Source: an uncultured Devosia sp.
GTDB lineage: Bacteria > Pseudomonadota > Alphaproteobacteria > Rhizobiales > Devosiaceae
Assembly (NCBI GenBank): GCA_934553185.1
Contig: CAKTFF010000050.1
Coordinates: forward strand, 1-9,885
Reading direction: 5' to 3'
DNA: 9,885 bases
In this document: positions 2,086 to 9,714 of the stretch, piece after piece
Layout of the letters: each line of letters opens with the position of its first letter
Position numbering within the stretch: the first letter of the stretch is position 1
Translations under genes and position numbers: made by a program
Notes under the pieces: generated by a model
What the model saw: the letters and a program-made list of their open reading frames with translations, nothing else
Told to the model about the DNA's origin: nothing
The model's database searches: none

Positions 2086-2475
2086 TCAGCTCAGAGCGCC
2101 GATCACCGCTTCGATGCGCTTTTTCATCGTCATCGCGTCAAATGGCTTGATGATGTAGTTGTTGACGCCAAAGGAAATGGCTTCCTTGACCTGCTCCTTG
2201 TCCGAGCGACCCGTGGCCATGATAAACGGCATGGCTTGTGTGCGCGGATGCTTGCGGATGACCTTGAGCAAGGTCAGCCCATCGATATCATCCATGTTCC
2301 AGTCAGAAATGATGAGATCGACATTGGCTTTTTCAAGCTTGCCAAGCGCGTCGCGACCGCTCTTGGCCTCGATGATGTCCTTGAACCCCAACTGGTTCAA
2401 AATGTACTTTGCAATTCCGCGCATGGACTGCTGATCGTCAACAATCAGAACGCTGACAGCGCTTGCTTTGGGCAT
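2086..2475 (-). CDS. cheY: Single-domain response regulator CheY (CheY2-like, probable motor regulator)
   Basis: This is a stand-alone receiver protein of 129 residues that takes a phosphoryl group from CheA. All active-site positions match E. coli CheY with an offset of one: acidic pair D13 and D14, phospho-acceptor D58, switch T88, aromatic Y107 and K110-P111. There is no output domain, so it acts by binding a partner, in this family the flagellar motor switch. It is the last gene of the cheD-cheR-cheB-cheY unit and is followed by a terminator. In Sinorhizobium meliloti the CheY next to cheB (CheY2) is the one that controls the motor; assigning that role here rests on gene position and on the classical active site. 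AGAAGG precedes the ATG at a rather long spacing. The 85-base gap to cheB holds a small CGGAAC/GTTCCG inverted repeat (2501-2518). Confidence 0.94.
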   Translation of the reverse strand: MPKASAVSVLIVDDQQSMRGIAKYILNQLGFKDIIEAKSGRDALGKLEKANVDLIISDWNMDDIDGLTLLKVIRKHPRTQAMPFIMATGRSDKEQVKEAISFGVNNYIIKPFDAMTMKKRIEAVIGALS

Positions 2476-2560: not shown

Positions 2561-3610
2561 CTATGCTGCTGTCTTGAGCCGAACAAGGGCTGACGCGAGC
2601 CGCCCGGCGATTGCCTCCACAGGTGCCTGCTCGACCACTGCGCCCTCCTCCCAAGCAACGCGCGGCATTCCATAAACAAGCGACGAAGCCTGGCTCTGCC
2701 CGATCGTATAGGCGCCACGCTCACGCATGGCCTTGAGGCCGCGGGCTCCATCGCGTCCCATTCCTGTCAGGATGGCGCCAACCGCCATCGACCCCACAAC
2801 TTGCGCAACCGAGTTGAACAGCACGTCGACGCTTGGGCGGTGACCGCTTTCCAGCCCATCCTGGCTAAGCCGGGTTCGCAGCAGGCCTGCCGAGCGCTCA
2901 ACCCTGAGATGGTAGTCGCCACGCGCCACGTAGGCGTGACCGGCCAGAAGCGGCGCACGATCCTCGGCCTCAAGCACCTTCAGGTCGCAGACTTCATCAA
3001 GCCGCGACGCAAAGCGGGCGGTGAATCCAGGCGGCATGTGCTGGGCGATAACGATTGGGGGACAATCCAGTGGCATGCCGGACAGCACGACCCGAATGGC
3101 CTCAACGCCGCCTGTCGAGGCGCCAATGGCGATAAGGGCGCCTTGCGGGGCGGCAGCAGACTTGATGGCGAGCTTCGGAGCCTCGCCACGCTCGCTTGAG
3201 CGCCCGCGCACATCGGACTTGGCAGCCGCGCGGATCTTGTCTCGCAGATTGCTGCCAAAGGCATCGAGACCCCCTTCGGCATCAGCGCTGGGCTTGGCCA
3301 CGAAGTCGACGGCACCCAATTCCAAAGCGAGCAGGGTTTCGCTGGCTCCCTTTTTGGTCAGGGTCGACACCATCACGACTGGGGTGGGCCGCAGCCGCAT
3401 CAGCTTGTCTAGAAACTGCAGCCCATTCATGTTGGGCATTTCGATGTCGAGCGTTACGACATCGGGGTTCAGCGCCTTGATCTTTTCCCGCGCGTCGATC
3501 GGGTCGGTCGCTGTGCCCACGACCTCGATGTCGCCGTCGCGCATCAGCATGCGTGAGAGCACTTCACGGATCAGCGCCGAGTCATCGACAACCAGAACCT
3601 TGATGCTCAT
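2561..3610 (-). CDS. cheB: Chemotaxis protein-glutamate methylesterase/glutamine deamidase CheB
   Basis: CheB removes methyl groups from receptor glutamates (and deamidates glutamines), resetting receptor signalling; phosphorylation by CheA activates it. The 349-residue product is of normal family length. The N-terminal receiver (about 1-120) has D9 and D10, phospho-acceptor D55, and K106 before P107. A linker (about 125-155) follows, then the esterase domain (about 156-345). The expected catalytic residues are S165 in GASTGG, H191 in AQHMPPGFTARF and D287 in TGMGRDG, each one off the enteric numbering. Its ATG overlaps the cheR stop as ATGA, which suggests translational coupling of the methyltransferase and the methylesterase. 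Nothing is missing or broken. Confidence 0.97.
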   Translation of the reverse strand: MSIKVLVVDDSALIREVLSRMLMRDGDIEVVGTATDPIDAREKIKALNPDVVTLDIEMPNMNGLQFLDKLMRLRPTPVVMVSTLTKKGASETLLALELGAVDFVAKPSADAEGGLDAFGSNLRDKIRAAAKSDVRGRSSERGEAPKLAIKSAAAPQGALIAIGASTGGVEAIRVVLSGMPLDCPPIVIAQHMPPGFTARFASRLDEVCDLKVLEAEDRAPLLAGHAYVARGDYHLRVERSAGLLRTRLSQDGLESGHRPSVDVLFNSVAQVVGSMAVGAILTGMGRDGARGLKAMRERGAYTIGQSQASSLVYGMPRVAWEEGAVVEQAPVEAIAGRLASALVRLKTAA

Positions 3611-4455
3611 GCTGCTTCTCGCTTGTTCGCTTTTTGGCGCGATTGGTAGATCGTTTTTCCAACAAGGCGAAAACCCTCGCCTCCCGAGCCCAGATTCTCT
3701 GAATGCCCGATATAGAGAAAAGCCTCTGGCGCCAGAAGTTTGCCTAGCCGGCTGAAAACCTGGCCTTGGGTCGGCTTATCGAAATAGATCGCCACATTGC
3801 GACAGAACACGGCGTCAAACGGCCCTTTCATCGGCCAGCTCGAAGCGATCAAGTTCAGCGGCTTAAACGACACGAGATCACGCGCGGCAATAGGGATGCG
3901 GACCGTACCGTCGCCCAACTTTTCCAGCATGCGCGCCCGCTCGGGCGACAGGCCTGCCAGCTCATTCTCGGGGTAAACACCACCCGCGGCCTTGGCGATC
4001 ACTGCCGTGTCGATGTCGGTGGCCAAAATCTTGAAATCCCACCGCCGTAACTCAGGGAAGGCGGCCAGTAAATCCATGCCGATCGTATAGGGCTCCTGCC
4101 CGGTGGAGCAGCCCGCCGACCAGATGCGCAACCGTGTACCCCGCGGCTTTTGCTCTATCAACGTGCCAACATACGCTCGAAGATGCTCGAAGTGGTGGTC
4201 CTCCCGAAAGAAACGGGTCAGGTTGGTGGTCAACGCGTTGACGAATTCCTGCCCGTCAGGGCCCGAGCCACTACGCTCCAAGTAGTCTAGATAAGCATCG
4301 AAGCTCCCAAGACCAAGCGACCGCACGATCTTGGACAGCCGCGACACCACCAGCGTCCGTTTCGCGTCGCTCAGCGAGATGCCGGCTACCTGGTAGACCC
4401 GGCTCTTGACCCGCGTGAATTCACGGTCACTGAGCGAAATTTCCCCCTGGTCCAT
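3607..4455 (-). CDS. cheR: Chemotaxis protein methyltransferase CheR
   Basis: CheR methylates receptor glutamates with S-adenosylmethionine, opposing CheB. The product has 282 residues from ATG 4455. The N-terminal all-helical domain (about 1-75) leads to TTNLTRFFRE (about 76-85), then the SAM-binding fold with AGCSTGQEPY (about 114-123), ATDID (about 145-149) and FCRNVAIYFD (about 217-226, where most family members have M instead of A). I preferred ATG 4455 because GGGGGA lies 9 bases upstream; an in-frame TTG at 4476 would add seven residues. The 3' end overlaps cheB (ATGA). cheD ends 142 bases upstream with no terminator visible between, so cheR is probably cotranscribed with cheD, although a promoter in that gap is possible. 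Confidence 0.96.
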   Translation of the reverse strand: MDQGEISLSDREFTRVKSRVYQVAGISLSDAKRTLVVSRLSKIVRSLGLGSFDAYLDYLERSGSGPDGQEFVNALTTNLTRFFREDHHFEHLRAYVGTLIEQKPRGTRLRIWSAGCSTGQEPYTIGMDLLAAFPELRRWDFKILATDIDTAVIAKAAGGVYPENELAGLSPERARMLEKLGDGTVRIPIAARDLVSFKPLNLIASSWPMKGPFDAVFCRNVAIYFDKPTQGQVFSRLGKLLAPEAFLYIGHSENLGSGGEGFRLVGKTIYQSRQKANKREAA

Positions 4456-4597
4456 GCGGCTCAGTCCCCCATTCAAGCCAACTGCGTCAGGTGGCCTCGT
4501 GGGCTAACTGACCGCTGCCGATCCTACCGGGCTCATTGCTTAGATTGCGTAAAGACCGGTCGGGCGGACTGGTGGATCGATCCAGCCGACTGAGCCG

Positions 4598-5188
4598 TCA
4601 AAACAGCTCAATATCGTCCACCGGAGCCGCAACAACGACGCGGCGTCGGGCCAGGGCGACTTCTTCGCGCGCCACGTCGTCGCCGGCAACACTGTCGAGT
4701 CGTTTCACAAAAGCCCGACCGGAAAAAGGCTTGAACAGGACGCGCCGCGCATAAGTGCCGCCAAGGTCTTCACTGGTTGCGACATAGCCTTCATCGGCCA
4801 AGAACTGCCGGATGAACTCGATGTTCTTGCGACCCACATCGTCAAGTGTCGAGTTGATCTTGCCCCCTCCAAAAACCTTAATCTCAAGGTTGTTTTTGCG
4901 GCCGGTTCCCTTGGTCAAGACCTTATTGATCAATTGCTCCATGGCGAAAGCACCGTAGCGTGCCGACGCGCCATACCGGTCCTTGGCGGAACCGGACTGC
5001 TCAGCCAGAAGGAAATGGTTCATGCCGCCCACATTGGCGACGCGGTCGCGCACACAGGCGGAAATGCACGAGCCCAATACGGTGGAATAGGTCAGGTCAG
5101 GCTCGCCCGAAACATGGCAATCGCCCTGGTGCACAGTGGTGACCACACCACGATCAAATTCAGGGGGAAGAGAATTGGGCAGTCCCAT
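4598..5188 (-). CDS. cheD: Chemoreceptor glutamine deamidase CheD
   Basis: CheD deamidates glutamines in receptor methylation regions and so helps set receptor activity. In some bacteria it is also the partner of the CheC phosphatase, which is not present in this window. The 196-residue product has the family's nucleophile in VLGSCISAC (C41) and the following histidine in GGMNHFLL (H58); FGGGK near residues 105-109 is also typical. The C-terminal ~25 residues are outside the core fold, basic then acidic, and end in VDDIELF, which resembles the end of the divergent small protein at 5351-5704. The first gene of the cheD-R-B-Y unit, it is read away from cheT across a 162-base gap. Its GGAG ribosome-binding site lies in a possible hairpin (5200-5220). 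Confidence 0.96.
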   Translation of the reverse strand: MGLPNSLPPEFDRGVVTTVHQGDCHVSGEPDLTYSTVLGSCISACVRDRVANVGGMNHFLLAEQSGSAKDRYGASARYGAFAMEQLINKVLTKGTGRKNNLEIKVFGGGKINSTLDDVGRKNIEFIRQFLADEGYVATSEDLGGTYARRVLFKPFSGRAFVKRLDSVAGDDVAREEVALARRRVVVAAPVDDIELF

Positions 5189-5239: not shown

Positions 5240-5256
5240 GTTAGTTAAACGCTAAC
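5240..5256. promoter_or_regulatory. Inverted repeat GTTAG-N7-CTAAC in the cheD/cheT divergent promoter region
   Basis: GTTAG and CTAAC are perfect 5-bp arms separated by seven bases, with TTAA inside. The TTAG-N7-CTAA core has the spacing and symmetry of a CtrA-type box, with one change in each half. On the minus strand TTGCGC and TAACGA, 16 bases apart, could be a -35/-10 pair for cheD, placing the repeat over the promoter. It sits between the divergent cheD and cheT genes and could control both. No protein can be assigned with certainty. Confidence 0.35.
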
Positions 5257-5350: not shown

Positions 5351-5704
5351 ATGTCACTCCAAAAACTCGCAAGAGAACTCGACGAGACGGCGCGTCAGAC
5401 AGCGTCCATGGTCGAGGGCATAGCCGAGGCTCTGGAGGTACTGGCGGACAAGAACGTGGCAAAGGACCCCACAATAAGGCAAGCCGTGCAGATAATCGTC
5501 ACCGCTCTCCAGGGTCAAGACAGGATCGAGCAACGCTGCCATAACATGGCGCTGGCGGTCAGACAGTTTGCTCTTCTGCCGCCCACCGCCCCGGACAGCG
5601 TTTATGACGAAATCTGGTCCAGCCTCACCCTCGATGAGCTACGCGTTCCAGCCCTGAGCGGCATCGCGGCCCATCAAAGCCATGGTGATGCCGAACTGTT
5701 CTGA
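5351..5704 (+). CDS. cheT: Small CheT-like protein with DXXXQ phosphatase motif
   Basis: This 117-residue soluble protein has no signal peptide or membrane segment. Residues 1-75 look wholly helical, and helix 2 contains LQGQDRIEQR with D57 and Q61 in a DXXXQ arrangement. That is the catalytic pattern of CheZ (D143, Q147 in E. coli), where the glutamine positions water to attack phospho-CheY. S. meliloti CheT is a small DXXXQ protein encoded next to cheD that speeds decay of the sink regulator CheY1-P and binds CheR. The same neighbourhood here (cheD, though divergent) supports a CheT-type role. The second half carries YDEIWSSLTLDEL (about 85-97) and ends in GDAELF, like the tail of CheD. The start has AGGGAT just upstream, and a terminator follows. 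The gene is real; the phosphatase role is inferred, and direct homology to CheT was not tested. Confidence 0.72.
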   Translation: MSLQKLARELDETARQTASMVEGIAEALEVLADKNVAKDPTIRQAVQIIVTALQGQDRIEQRCHNMALAVRQFALLPPTAPDSVYDEIWSSLTLDELRVPALSGIAAHQSHGDAELF

Positions 5705-5731: not shown

Positions 5732-5759
5732 AAAGGCGCCATGCAGGGCCTTTTGCTTT
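5732..5759 (+). terminator. Intrinsic terminator after the cheT-like gene
   Basis: AAAGGC (5732-5737) pairs with GCCTTT (5748-5753) and the downstream side continues into TTTTGCTTT. It lies about 27 bases past the stop at 5704, on the plus strand, so the cheT-like gene appears to be a single-gene transcript that ends before the convergent remnant at 5768. Confidence 0.6.
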
Positions 5760-5767
5760 AGGGCGTT

Positions 5768-6064
5768 CTACGAAAACACCACCTGCACGCCCGGCGCGAC
5801 CATGGCACCGAGCTCCTCGGCATCCCAATTGATCAGCCGCACGCAACCATGTGAGCGGGTCTTGTCGATCTGGGCAGGCTCGGGGGTGCCGTGAATGCCA
5901 AGGTGGGCTTGCTGAGCGCGATCCACCTCGATCCTGCCGGTCCGCTGGGGCCCGGCGGGATAGTGAGAACCTCGGTGTTCTCGCCCTGCTGGAAATTGAT
6001 CTTTGTAGGTATAGTTCGGCATGGGTGCCACCACCTCCACAACATAGCTGCCGCTGGACGCAAA
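5768..6064 (-). pseudogene. L,D-transpeptidase (YkuD family) remnant, N-terminally truncated and frameshifted
   Basis: The sequence matches the C-terminal part of a family that crosslinks peptidoglycan using a catalytic cysteine. One minus-strand frame gives GSYVVEVVAPMPNYTY, then at about 5990-6005 similarity moves to another frame (NFQQGENTEVLTIPPGPSGP, then WIALSKPTL), and at about 5898-5901 it returns to the first frame with GIHGTPEP and the active-site segment SHGCVRLINWDAEEL. The second change fits loss of one G (TTGGC for TTGGGC). The first frame is open throughout, from a TTG at 6103, but its middle part does not look like the family. The N-terminal half is absent, and the remnant abuts the cheW terminator. 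No start codon with a ribosome-binding site is visible. It is most likely a decaying gene; sequencing error could explain the frame changes but not the missing half. Confidence 0.75.
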
Positions 6065-6084
6065 AAAGGGGCGCCAGGCGCCCC
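6062..6084 (-). terminator. Strong intrinsic terminator after cheW
   Basis: GGGGCGC and GCGCCCC form a 7-bp all-G/C stem with a CAG loop (6068-6084), followed on the minus strand by six T residues (6067-6062). It starts 26 bases past the cheW stop and ends the cheS-cheY-cheA-cheW unit. This is the clearest terminator in the window. Confidence 0.9.
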
Positions 6085-6109
6085 TTCTCTTATTCAGCCG
6101 CAAGAAGCT

Positions 6110-6598
6110 TCAGCTATCCATCTTGGCGCCGCTAACTACGGCGTGCAGATCGATCAACCCGACCATGCGGCTTTCATGGGTGACGATACCGTTGAGCAAT
6201 TCGGTGTCGATTGAATTGCCTTCTGGTACGTTGTGGATGTCGTCGCGGGATACGGTGAGAATGTCCGACACAGCATCGACCAGAATGCCCACCCACTTGT
6301 CGCCCACGCTCATCACCACCACGACATGGTTCTTGGTAGGTGACGTCTGCCCGTCGCCAAAGCGCGCACGCAGATCAAAGATCGGCACGATGGTGCCTCG
6401 CAAGTTGATGACGCCGCGCACGAACTCACGCGTATTGGGCAGCGGCGTCGCCCCGTTCCAGGCGCGGATCTCCCGCACCGTGGTGATTTCCACCCCATAG
6501 GTCTGCTCGCCAATGGAAAAGGCGATCAACTGCAGGGAGTTCTGGGCGGCCAGTGCCGACTTGTCGCCCATGTCATCGCGCAAACTCAGCGCTTCCAT
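6110..6598 (-). CDS. cheW: Chemotaxis coupling protein CheW
   Basis: CheW links receptors to CheA in the chemosensory array and has no enzyme activity. The 162-residue product is one CheW fold: LQLIAFSIGEQTYGVEI (about 22-38), then VINLRGTIVPIFDLR (about 63-77, with the conserved NLRG loop) and VGILVDAVSDIL further on. The first ~20 residues are a short variable extension. An AAAGG-like site precedes the ATG; a later in-frame ATG (10th codon) cannot be excluded. It follows cheA by 51 bases, in which there are two hairpins, and a strong terminator follows. It lies in the same operon as cheA, so expression of the two is likely tied. Confidence 0.97.
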   Translation of the reverse strand: MEALSLRDDMGDKSALAAQNSLQLIAFSIGEQTYGVEITTVREIRAWNGATPLPNTREFVRGVINLRGTIVPIFDLRARFGDGQTSPTKNHVVVVMSVGDKWVGILVDAVSDILTVSRDDIHNVPEGNSIDTELLNGIVTHESRMVGLIDLHAVVSGAKMDS

Positions 6599-6614: not shown

Positions 6615-6658
6615 GCCGCCCTGAGGGCGGCTACGCAATACCAGGGCCGCTAAGCGGC
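6615..6658 (-). repeat. Two hairpins between cheA and cheW
   Basis: GCCGCCC-TGA-GGGCGGC (6615-6631) is a perfect 7-bp stem ending 16 bases before the cheW start, and GCCGC-TAA-GCGGC (about 6646-6658) straddles the cheA stop codon. Neither is followed by a T-run on the minus strand, so they are not obvious terminators. They could stabilise or process the mRNA or alter the cheA:cheW ratio; that is inference. Confidence 0.5.
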
Positions 6659-8971
6659 ATTCTTGTGAACAATCGTGGTCTTTAGCCCTTGGACGTCAAC
6701 GATCAGTGCGACATTGCCGTCGCCTAGGATCGTGCCGCCGGCGATGCCTTCGACGCGCTCGAAATTCTCTTCAAGCGACTTGATGACAACCTGCTGCTGG
6801 CCGATGATGTCATCAACGATCAGCGCCACCTTGGCTGAGCCTTCTGCTTCGCACAGCACGACAAAGCGGCTTTCCGCTTCAGCCTCGGTTCTCATCTCGA
6901 AGCGCTGCGCCAGGTCGATTACCTGCACATATTCGCCCCGCACTTGGAGTACCTGCCCGCCGCTCGGCACGCGCTCGAAACTGGCGCGCGAGCACTGAAT
7001 GGTCTCAACGATGGAGGAAAGCGGCACCACATAGGGCGAGTCACCCACCTTGACCAGCATGACGTCCAGCACAGCCAGCGTCAGTGGCAGGCGCAGGGTC
7101 ATGCGCGTGCCCTTGCCGGTCCAGGAGCGCACATGCACCGAGCCGCCGATCTTCTTGATGTTGCTCAGCACCACATCCATGCCGACGCCGCGGCCCGAAA
7201 TGTCGCTCAACGCCTCGGCGGTGGAGAAACCTGGGGCAAAGATCAACTGGTCGATCTGCTCGTCGCTAGGATTGGTGTCCGGCGCCACGATCCCCTTGTC
7301 GCGCGCCACCTGAAGCACACGCTCGCGATTAATGCCGCCGCCATCATCCTCGACAATGATCAGGATATTGCCGCCCGCCTGTTCGGCAGAAAGACGGATC
7401 GTGCCTGTTTCGCCCTTGCCACGGGCAAGCCTTTTCTCCGGCGTTTCAATGCCGTGATCGGCCGAATTGCGGATCATATGGGTCAACGGATCGCTCAATT
7501 GCTCGATCACCGTCTTGTCGATCTCAGTGTTCTCGCCGATGGTTTCGAGCTTGATCTTCTTGCCGGTTTTGGTGGCCAGTTCGCGAACCAGCCGCGGCAT
7601 GCGCGAAAACACCGATTTAACCGGCTGAGCGCGGATCGCCATCACCGAGTCTTGTAGGCCACGTGTGGTTTGCGCCAGCACTTCAAGCCCGCGCACGAGT
7701 TCGGTGTAGCGCGCGCGCAGCGTTTCATCCATCTGCTGGGTTAGCATGGACTGGGTGATCACCAGTTCGCCGACCATGTTGACGACGCGGTCCACCTTGT
7801 CGAGGTCGACACGAATGGACTGGACGCCGACACTGCTCCGACCGCCACTCTCTTCGCCGTCCGCCGGGGAGGAGGCAACCCGCAAGGGTGCCGCAACTGT
7901 TGCTGCCGGCTTCACTTCAGGGCTTGGCTGAAGCGCCTGCGCCAAATCGGTGAAGCTGAGTGCGGGGGCAGAAGTAAAGCTATCCTGCTCGCCGGGGGCT
8001 TCAGGCATCGGCTCGGGAACAAATGGCCGGCCCGTATCAAAAGCGAGCAGGTTATCGACCTCATCGTCGGCCAATGCCAGCAAATCGGCCGGATCGCTGT
8101 TGATTGCACCTGACTGCTCCGGCGCTGAAGCCGGCAGCCATGAAGCGGCCGGTAAAGAGGAGGTGCCCAGTTGGGCAACAACGATGTCGCAATCGCCTTC
8201 AACAAACTCGAAGACTTCGCGGATCAGCGTCTCGGTCACGGTTGGGGAGATCATGGTGATCTCCCACGAGCAGTAAACCGCAAAGGGCTCGAAGTCGCTC
8301 AGAAGTGGAATGTCGCCCAAAACGGCGCGCACATGCAATTCGCCCAGCGAAGCGAGCTCGCGGAACAGCAGCAATGGGTCATTGGCGCGCGCATAGAGTG
8401 CCCGATGCGGCGTGAAGCGGATCTCCCAATGACCTGGCTCGATCTCGGCCATCGGCGGCTGCTCGAACGCATCCTCCTCAGGCTCTTCATCGGCGTCCGC
8501 AGAGGCGTCGAGATTAACCCGCACCGGGGTAAATTCGATATCGAAATCTTCGATGGGCTCACCGCTCTCGTCGTCAACGGCGGTATCGCCTCGGGCCAAC
8601 GCGTCAAAACGCTGCTTTTCATCCATGCCGTAATCGGCAGGCAGTGGCTCGCCGGTCTGCGCAGCCTTGACGTGGTCGGCGACAATGTCATTGGCCCGGA
8701 TGCAAAGGGTAACAACCTCGTCGGTCAACTCAATACGGCCATCTCGCACATAGTCGAGAAGCGTTTCATAGACATGGGCAAAGCCGACAAGCGCTGAAAA
8801 TCCGAACGCCCCCGCGCCGCCTTTGATCGAATGAATGGCCCGGAACACCGCATTGAGCCGATCAGCATCCCGTTCGCCGGCTTCGATCGCCGCAAACTGC
8901 TCTTCGAGCTCAAGAAGGAGCTCGGAGCATTCGTCAAAATAGGTGGCTTTGAAATCGTCGAGGTCGCTCAT
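6650..8971 (-). CDS. cheA: Chemotaxis histidine kinase CheA
   Basis: CheA is the soluble kinase of the receptor array; it autophosphorylates on P1 and passes phosphate to CheY and CheB. The 773 residues read: P1 HPt (about 1-105) with phospho-acceptor H47 in RAIHSIKGGAGAFGF; an acidic linker; an extra alpha/beta domain (about 180-266, WEIRFTPH... NDPLLLFRELASLG... REVFEFVEGD) where the CheY-binding P2 would be; a long Pro/Ala/Ser/Asp-rich linker (about 270-380); P3 dimerisation (about 385-450); and P4 kinase with the N box (MIRNSADHG, about 499-507), G1 (VEDDGGG), F box (FAPGFSTA) and G2 (GRGVGMDVV). A P5 CheW-like domain (about 635-765) ends it. AGAAGG lies upstream of ATG 8971. The 33-base gap to cheY1 places it in the cheS operon. 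All catalytic boxes are intact. Confidence 0.97.
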   Translation of the reverse strand: MSDLDDFKATYFDECSELLLELEEQFAAIEAGERDADRLNAVFRAIHSIKGGAGAFGFSALVGFAHVYETLLDYVRDGRIELTDEVVTLCIRANDIVADHVKAAQTGEPLPADYGMDEKQRFDALARGDTAVDDESGEPIEDFDIEFTPVRVNLDASADADEEPEEDAFEQPPMAEIEPGHWEIRFTPHRALYARANDPLLLFRELASLGELHVRAVLGDIPLLSDFEPFAVYCSWEITMISPTVTETLIREVFEFVEGDCDIVVAQLGTSSLPAASWLPASAPEQSGAINSDPADLLALADDEVDNLLAFDTGRPFVPEPMPEAPGEQDSFTSAPALSFTDLAQALQPSPEVKPAATVAAPLRVASSPADGEESGGRSSVGVQSIRVDLDKVDRVVNMVGELVITQSMLTQQMDETLRARYTELVRGLEVLAQTTRGLQDSVMAIRAQPVKSVFSRMPRLVRELATKTGKKIKLETIGENTEIDKTVIEQLSDPLTHMIRNSADHGIETPEKRLARGKGETGTIRLSAEQAGGNILIIVEDDGGGINRERVLQVARDKGIVAPDTNPSDEQIDQLIFAPGFSTAEALSDISGRGVGMDVVLSNIKKIGGSVHVRSWTGKGTRMTLRLPLTLAVLDVMLVKVGDSPYVVPLSSIVETIQCSRASFERVPSGGQVLQVRGEYVQVIDLAQRFEMRTEAEAESRFVVLCEAEGSAKVALIVDDIIGQQQVVIKSLEENFERVEGIAGGTILGDGNVALIVDVQGLKTTIVHKNAA

Positions 8972-9004: not shown

Positions 9005-9373
9005 TTAGTGGACGACCCGGTGAATAACCGAGATCAGCTTTTCAGGATCAAATGGCTTGACGATCCAGCCCGTGCCGCCCGCCGCCTTGCCCTGATCGCG
9101 CTTGTCTTGCGAAGTCTCGGTGGTCAGGATCAGGATGGGCAGGCTCTGGTGATTGCCGCCGGCGCGCACATGACGGATGAATTCAATGCCGTCCATCACT
9201 GGCATATTGATGTCGGTGATCACCACGTCCACCGTCTCGGTACGCAGCACATCAAGGCCCTGCTTGCCGTCCTCGGCCTGCAAGACCTCAAAACCGGCAT
9301 TGCTCAGCGTGTGGTGCAGCATGGCGAGGATCGTCCTCGAATCGTCCACCGTCAGTACCCGCAAAATCGTCAT
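9005..9373 (-). CDS. cheY: Single-domain response regulator CheY (CheY1-like, possible phosphate sink)
   Basis: This is a 122-residue receiver with D10 and D11, phospho-acceptor D54, switch T84 (followed by T85) and K106-P107. The position of the enteric CheY aromatic switch (Y106) holds tryptophan, W103, which sets it apart from the second CheY at 2086-2475. The start is ATG 9373, overlapping the cheS stop as ATGA; the same frame stays open far upstream without any receiver-like sequence. Its place between cheS and cheA matches S. meliloti CheY1, which does not drive the motor but drains phosphate from CheA. That role is assigned by gene order, not by a diagnostic residue. Divergence from the other CheY is consistent with a division of labour. 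Confidence 0.93.
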   Translation of the reverse strand: MTILRVLTVDDSRTILAMLHHTLSNAGFEVLQAEDGKQGLDVLRTETVDVVITDINMPVMDGIEFIRHVRAGGNHQSLPILILTTETSQDKRDQGKAAGGTGWIVKPFDPEKLISVIHRVVH

Positions 9374-9660
9374 CCTCTGATTATCCCTGAAAACTGGGCG
9401 CCCAAACCCAGGCGATCGATCGCCGTCAGCAGTGCCGTGCTGGGCTGCTCCAGCGCAAATTCGAACTGATTTTTTCGCGCGGTCTCGGCGGCGCTGATCA
9501 GCATGAACAGGGCATTGGTCGAAACGCGCTCCACCCCATCGGCGCGCACCGCAACGGCACCCTCTTCGACGGCGTCGATCAAGCCGTCGCGGATGCCATC
9601 GAGGGCATCGAGGTCGATCACGGCTGGCAGGTGAACGGTCTTGGTGGTCTGGCTGACCAT
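9370..9660 (-). CDS. cheS: STAS-domain protein, CheS-like
   Basis: This is a small cytoplasmic protein of 96 residues with a STAS-like fold: TVHLPAVIDLDALDGI, then RVSTNALFMLISAAETARK, then STALLTAIDRLGLGAQF. The usual phosphorylatable serine of anti-sigma antagonists cannot be picked with confidence. S. meliloti CheS, a 97-residue protein encoded just before cheY1 and cheA, binds CheA and speeds loss of phosphate from CheY1. Length and gene order agree with that. The start is uncertain: ATG 9660 gives a length like CheS, with only a GGGGGG run about 12 bases upstream; GTG 9693 would add 11 residues with no better site. It is the first gene of the operon and overlaps cheY1 by ATGA. Name by similarity and position; homology not tested. 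Confidence 0.75.
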   Translation of the reverse strand: MVSQTTKTVHLPAVIDLDALDGIRDGLIDAVEEGAVAVRADGVERVSTNALFMLISAAETARKNQFEFALEQPSTALLTAIDRLGLGAQFSGIIRG

Positions 9661-9714
9661 GACGGATGTGTGCCCCCCGGGACGTTTCTCCACGTCTCAC
9701 TTTCGCCGGGAACG

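Follow-up and report, generated by a model that had tools for sequence, protein, structure and literature searches.

In the chemotaxis phosphatase CheZ, the glutamine of a DXXXQ motif positions the attacking water and the aspartate contacts the conserved lysine of CheY. Phosphatases of the CheC, CheX and FliY type differ from CheT in fold and motif and would serve the same purpose, with CheC working together with CheD. CheT itself was reportedly characterised in one rhizobium in 2024, and in that work, by Agbekudzi et al., the S. meliloti protein is said to act on CheY1, the phosphate sink, and not CheY2, the motor regulator. One review describes S. meliloti CheT as carrying DXXXQ, enhancing the dephosphorylation of only one CheY, forming a complex with CheR, and having a predicted structure similar to that of CheZ (PMC12654446). 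In S. meliloti and similar rhizobia, according to a second review, no CheZ is encoded and CheY1 is a phosphate sink for CheY2 (PMC8429497).

The stretch of DNA analysed here, which we call the window, is 9,885 nucleotides long and comes from an uncultured Devosia sp. It holds a chemotaxis cluster in which a small plus-strand gene (5351..5704), annotated only as 'hypothetical protein' in the database records examined, adjoins cheD (4598..5188, minus strand; Pfam CheD 3.6e-24; 42% identical to S. meliloti CheD) and reads divergently from it. A sequence-only reading of this DNA had put the gene forward as a CheT-like phosphatase candidate. The best explanation of our comparisons, and one that we consider reasonably likely, is that its product is a divergent member of the CheT family whose D57 and Q61 would reach into the active site of CheY~P and speed the loss of phosphate in the manner of CheZ. 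By analogy with CheZ, Q61 would position the attacking water and D57 would contact the conserved lysine of CheY.

The setting of the gene is that of the rhizobial system with a local rearrangement. On the minus strand, the window also encodes cheS (9370..9693; Pfam STAS_2; 30% identical to S. meliloti CheS), cheY1 (9005..9373; 59.5% identical to S. meliloti CheY1), cheA (6650..8971; 53% over 380 aa), cheW (6110..6598; 44%), cheR (3607..4476; 42%), cheB (2561..3610; 52%) and cheY2 (2086..2475; 42% identical to S. meliloti CheY2 and a motor-type CheY by orthology), with cheA, cheW, cheR, cheB and both cheY genes assigned by Pfam and all compared with their S. meliloti namesakes. The resulting order, cheS-cheY1-cheA-cheW-(cheT inverted)-cheD-cheR-cheB-cheY2, is exact in 42 of 71 loci carrying the family, and the remaining loci have genes missing at contig ends or split or overlapping ORFs; in some relatives an ordinary receptor lies between cheR and cheD. 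The divergent adjacency of cheT and cheD holds at every one of these loci (71/71, scored as 70 because overlapping stop-to-stop ORFs at L061 sort differently). In the S. meliloti record CP090106.1, the cluster reads STAS-response regulator-cheA-cheW-cheR-cheB-response regulator-cheD-'hypothetical protein', and by position the last of these is CheT. The inversion that the sequence-only reading had noted relative to S. meliloti is borne out by this cluster: the Devosia gene is inverted and divergent from cheD, and cheD has moved in front of cheR. CP090106.1 is a 3.7-Mb record labelled plasmid pSymB that has the appearance of a chromosome and carries the main che and flagellar genes.

The cheT candidate is a real and conserved gene, as evidenced by 897 relatives in a protein search (E<=0.01) and by 71 loci found when species genomes were scanned, every locus having a single family ORF. 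Its frame is open from an ATG start and encodes 117 amino acids. The best 120 of the 897 relatives are at least 83% identical, those named by organism being Devosia, and the 71 loci are mostly titled Devosia, with Pelagibacterium, Maritalea and other Alphaproteobacteria also represented. At one locus, a Devosia-type cheT (78% identity) stands on a contig titled Thermomicrobiaceae, probably through a binning error. Sequence searches of Pfam, NCBIfam and the PDB found nothing above threshold (DUF982 and Mediator subunits were among the weaker matches), and no relative of the Devosia protein was found in searches of viral contigs and plasmids.

The putative catalytic motif lies in LQGQDRIEQR (residues 53-62; 5507..5536, plus strand), with D57 encoded at 5519-5521 and Q61 at 5531-5533. 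The presence of a DxxxQ pattern alone is weak evidence, because 49% of 10,000 shuffles of the protein contain one. The conservation of its residues is more telling: D57 and Q61, which the sequence-only reading had singled out, are identical in all 72 aligned family sequences (71 loci plus the window), and 18 of the 117 columns are invariant (L10, E12, T13, R15, Q16, L31, Q54, D57, R58, I59, Q61, R62, A69, W89, L94, E96, L97 and F117), six of which fall within the motif stretch. This invariance is the opposite of the poor conservation that the sequence-only reading had named as refuting it and, together with the profile link to rhizobial CheT described below, supports the CheT-like reading. The motif had also been placed on a predicted helix, and in the AlphaFold2 model it stands at the start of a single helix spanning residues 56-74, within a helical hairpin that is followed by a low-confidence tail. 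Confidence falls below a pLDDT of 50 at residues 97-100 and 102-117, and the end of the rhizobial CheT model (111-129) is likewise below 50, which would suit a flexible tethered peptide in both proteins. Among the matches listed, Foldseek and VIA-align searches with the Devosia model returned generic helical hairpins only (Mediator, BAR, ESCRT, EsxB), as did Foldseek with the rhizobial model; CheZ was not among the matches listed, which is uninformative either way.

The tail of the protein ends in a tag that it shares with CheD. DAELF occupies residues 113-117 (5687..5701), F117 is present in 72/72 sequences, and family ORFs end in [DE] (once Q)-x-[ED]-[LF]-F at 70 of 71 loci. The remaining frame, L042, has the same letters and reads beyond the ELF codons to a later stop, reflecting a stop loss or a sequence error. 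The last five codons of the window cheD (4601-4615) spell DIELF, and the tag terminates 71 of the 72 CheD-assigned ORFs of the 71 loci (70 DIELF, one EIEMF). At the same loci, no closed ORF has it among 399 from the seven other Che genes or among 134 from receptors. Receptors with a DWxEF-type end carry a known type of tether for CheR and CheB, and 76 of the 134 receptor ORFs end in xWxxF, most commonly DWSEF (26), DWNEF (17) and DWDEF (9), so two different tags coexist. Across the whole genome of Devosia aurantiaca, the DNA pattern for [DE]x[ED][LF]F-stop gave four matches, including CheD and CheT; of the other two, one is followed by TGG rather than a stop and one has no ORF of at least 40 aa ending there, and thus no ORF besides CheD and CheT was found with the tag end in that genome. 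More broadly in Hyphomicrobiales, CheD ends in [IVL][EDQ][LF]F in 25/25 ORFs, six with one extra residue, D (CheD was found by pattern in 25 of 27 loci), and this tail occurs in genomes with or without a standalone CheT (L092-L117).

Similar peptides occur in proteins that engage CheY. CheZ has a C-terminal tail with [ED]...LF, and 12 of 19 CheZ ORFs of the order end in DID[AS]LF plus one residue. FliM begins with NQDEIDSL[LF] in four Devosiaceae genomes, which resembles the EIDALL motif through which FliM binds CheY~P (PMC9126983); S. meliloti FliM has no such start. We favour the proposal that the tag of CheT and CheD serves for docking to CheY, akin to the peptides of CheZ and FliM, rather than to CheR. 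The flexible ELF-ended tail of CheT would then act as a docking peptide like the C-terminal peptide of CheZ or the N-terminal peptide of FliM, with CheR as an alternative partner.

The resemblance between tag and tether raises a different role, which we judge rather unlikely, in which the protein would be an adaptor of the adaptation arm and not mainly a phosphatase, its tail docking to CheR or CheB in mimicry of the DWxEF tether and its conserved helix forming a binding surface. The acidic first residue and final F are common to tag and tether, and the DFEAF end of S. meliloti CheT resembles a receptor tether with F for W; however, the tag is without the tether's W, and both kinds of tail coexist within one operon, where a receptor ending in DWKEF stands beside a CheD and an MCP-like protein that both end in ELF. 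An adaptor would also accord with the S. meliloti CheT-CheR complex (PMC12654446), whereas a single residue beyond the F in 6/25 CheD of the order is a feature of CheZ tails, and docking alone leaves the invariance of D57 and Q61 unexplained.

That the Devosia protein belongs to the CheT family is suggested by profile comparison. BLASTP of the window protein against S. meliloti CheT found no similarity (E 2.9). Alignment by hhalign of a profile of 26 diverse members of the Devosia-type family (26/72; A2) with a profile of 22 rhizobial-type CheT sequences (A3) gave a score of 30.1, an E value of 1.7e-4 and a probability of 50%, covering residues 48-117 and placing DXXXQ on DXXXQ and C-terminus on C-terminus. 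Two other alignments, A1 and A4, comprised 39 of 121 and 46 of 120 sequences. As controls, 100 column shuffles of A3 scored at most 18.9, 30 further shuffles at most 17.5, and reversed profiles 12-13, while 59 natural decoy profiles from the same loci reached at most 23.6 against A2 and 20.6 against A3. The highest decoy (23.6) is the ordinary receptor found between cheR and cheD in many relatives, which is without the DXXXQ motif.

Searches of genomes with either profile stayed on their own side of this divide. The A2 profile gave 19 matches in 297 Hyphomicrobiales genomes, namely 13 strong Devosia-type matches, one in G175 at 1.7e-7, and five weak ones comprising four MCP-like proteins (G061, G191, G215 and G273) and a match inside a DnaK frame (G131). 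The A3 profile gave eight matches in 199 Hyphomicrobiales genomes, none of them in Devosia genomes, such that profile-to-genome searches cross in neither direction. The G175 protein (LQAEDRIRQR ... EIELF) occupies the same divergent position next to cheD; it scores 46.8 against A2 and 16.2 against A3, the latter equalled or exceeded by 1 of 30 shuffles. The Devosia and rhizobial groups have several features in common. Both consist of small proteins of 117-130 aa, predicted to be helical, with LQGxDxxxQ[KR], an acidic-x-acidic-x-F type of C-terminus, and a gene that adjoins cheD in a cluster of cheS, cheY1, cheA, cheW, cheR, cheB and cheY2. S. meliloti CheT from CP090106.1 is 124 aa long, has LQGIDLAVQK as its motif and terminates in GDFEAF; NCBI or UniRef gives its close rhizobial relatives the name 'chemotaxis protein CheT'. 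In addition to the gene order, the groups differ in their tails, DAELF in Devosia versus DFEAF or DFDFF in rhizobia. Taken together, the Devosia-type protein is likely a divergent, inverted CheT.

A third group of proteins connects to both. Soluble MCP-like proteins of Hyphomicrobiales share with CheT a DXXXQ helix, an ELF-type end and the same kind of che operon; unlike CheT, they are about 370 aa long and have an MCP signalling domain (PF00015) before the motif. PF00015 was found in three of three such proteins scanned, and in 3/3 genomes read their genes follow cheB in the series cheA-cheW-mcp-cheR-cheD-cheB (L167:9308-10447, L168:9334-10965 and L169:7077-8354); a further DXXXQ/ELF protein of this kind is encoded on the minus strand of L088 at 1339-2448. 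A search with one MCP-like protein scored 6931 relatives (E<=1e-5), a set that may include many ordinary receptors; the named relatives listed are called methyl-accepting chemotaxis proteins. Among the best 120, [LMIV]QxxDxxxQ is present in 120/120 and an ELF-type end in 119/120. A profile of 40 of these 120 scored 46.4 against A2, 33.1 against A3 and 25.3 against CheZ, compared with 14.9, 15.2 and 17.6 for the best of 30 shuffles in each case, and all three alignments are in register at DXXXQ. In profile space, the MCP-like proteins bridge CheT to CheZ, and it is possible that they are receptor-phosphatases.

The direct relation of the Devosia protein to CheZ is fainter. PF04344 (CheZ) matched the window protein neither in a Pfam scan to E 1 nor among the 25 families listed for A2, and PF04509 and PF13690 (CheC/CheX) gave no match to it in the Pfam scan. 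Against a CheZ profile of 11 ORFs from 20 loci of the same order, A2 scored 15.5, with 7 of 30 shuffles as high or higher, and 15.9 against the C-terminal part of CheZ, with 0 of 30 as high (best 14.8). A3 found nothing in CheZ (15.4 with 5/30 shuffles as high; 9.3 with 27/30 in the other comparison). Of the two families that the sequence-only reading had named for a profile search, CheT is thus linked remotely and above controls, and CheZ has no clear direct link. The window protein is also about half as long as CheZ and is without its N-terminal region, and its profile score is at or barely above that of shuffles. The two are alike around the motif, where DXXXQ is preceded by A-x-x-[FG]-Q (A52-L-Q-G-Q56-D57 in the window protein), consistent with the AXXFQ motif next to DXXXQ described for CheZ proteins (PMC7750401).

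Genomes with this gene tend to be without the established phosphatases. No CheZ, CheC or CheX is encoded in the window, as had been claimed, with ten proteins scanned and the receptor at the low end judged by translation only. Of 14 tested genomes with Devosia-type cheT, 13 are without CheZ, the exception being G096, where both are present; CheC and CheX are each absent in 9/9 tested relatives. Among 199 Hyphomicrobiales genomes (taken to be G001 and G004-G201), 16 have a standalone CheT, and CheZ is present in 3 of these (G096, G175 and, weakly, G138) versus 123 of the other 183 (Fisher p=2.0e-4, with no correction for ancestry). This count left out the DnaK-frame match G131, the MCP-like matches G061 and G191, and three small cheD neighbours with DxxxQ that neither profile reaches (G071, G132 and G189), none of these three occurring with CheZ. 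In Devosia, the CheT candidate probably stands in for the CheZ phosphatase.

Which CheY would be served bears on the suggestion that the gene supplies signal termination. That suggestion fits the absence of CheZ, CheC and CheX from most or all relatives tested, but it is weaker than first worded because the target of S. meliloti CheT is reportedly the sink CheY1 rather than the motor CheY2. Judging by orthology with that sink, the target in Devosia is probably CheY1, in which case the candidate protein would empty the sink and thereby indirectly speed the shutdown of CheY2. If the Devosia protein is a CheT, CheT-type phosphatases extend beyond rhizobia to Devosia, and their activity would explain how CheY~P is removed in genomes that have no CheZ, CheC or CheX.

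That the protein has no kinship with CheT is improbable; it would then be a CheD partner specific to this clade, whether or not it is a phosphatase, with a DxxxQ helix and an ELF end reached by convergence. In favour of this, BLASTP and profile-to-genome searches fail to join it with rhizobial CheT, about half of all shuffles contain DxxxQ, and cheD is present in 16/16 genomes counted with a standalone CheT; against it, the profile link stands above two kinds of control and the MCP-like proteins link to both families. Returning to CheT-family membership, a broader reading that we regard as tentative is that CheT represents, in free-standing form, a larger phosphatase family that has gone unrecognised and is defined by the DXXXQ helix and the ELF tag, elsewhere in Hyphomicrobiales built onto a soluble receptor-like protein that would carry a CheY~P phosphatase of its own. 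CheD, CheT and the receptor-phosphatases would then share, in their tag, one code for docking to CheY, with the CheZ tail and the FliM N-terminus as its equivalents; it would couple CheD (adaptation) and CheT (termination) directly to CheY phosphorylation and do the job of the CheC-CheD feedback of Bacillus. The tag, being short and easy to mutate, offers a way to ask how CheT and CheD find their partners, and bears on whether CheY couples adaptation and termination. In the open-access literature searched, a scope outside which most subscription papers fall, no paper listed dealt by title or abstract with Devosia CheT, a tag common to CheT and CheD, or receptor-like DXXXQ proteins.

The gene had also been credited with its own promoter region and terminator; the first claim is half borne out and the second is weak. 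Between cheD and cheT lies a palindrome, GTTAG-N7-CTAAC (5240..5256), and the form TTAN-N7-YTAAC occurs upstream of cheT in 71 of 72 sequences (all but L025) versus 5 of 2010 control stretches. A stricter form is found near -110 in 58/72 and only twice elsewhere in 1.25 Mb. The palindrome is likely an operator, and a scan found no sigma70-type promoter match upstream of cheT. The palindrome has the spacing of a CtrA site; the full site, TTAA-N7-TTAA, is present upstream of cheT in 0/71, so no regulator is assigned. Downstream of the gene, a weak hairpin on the plus strand (5732..5753) could serve as a terminator; the segment 5722-5762 folds at -11 kcal/mol, 36 of 200 shuffles fold equally stably or more so (z -0.8), and the terminator scan did not call it.

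Between cheT and cheW, the window further contains an ORF (5768-6103) that corresponds to the C-terminal part of an L,D-transpeptidase (positions 57-145 of 146 in the YkuD profile), and among 71 relatives just one has a similar ORF above the score used. On the minus strand, a strong hairpin accompanied by a T run (6062-6090) is apparently the cheW terminator. Because this hairpin overlaps the start of the ORF, the latter is probably a gene remnant.
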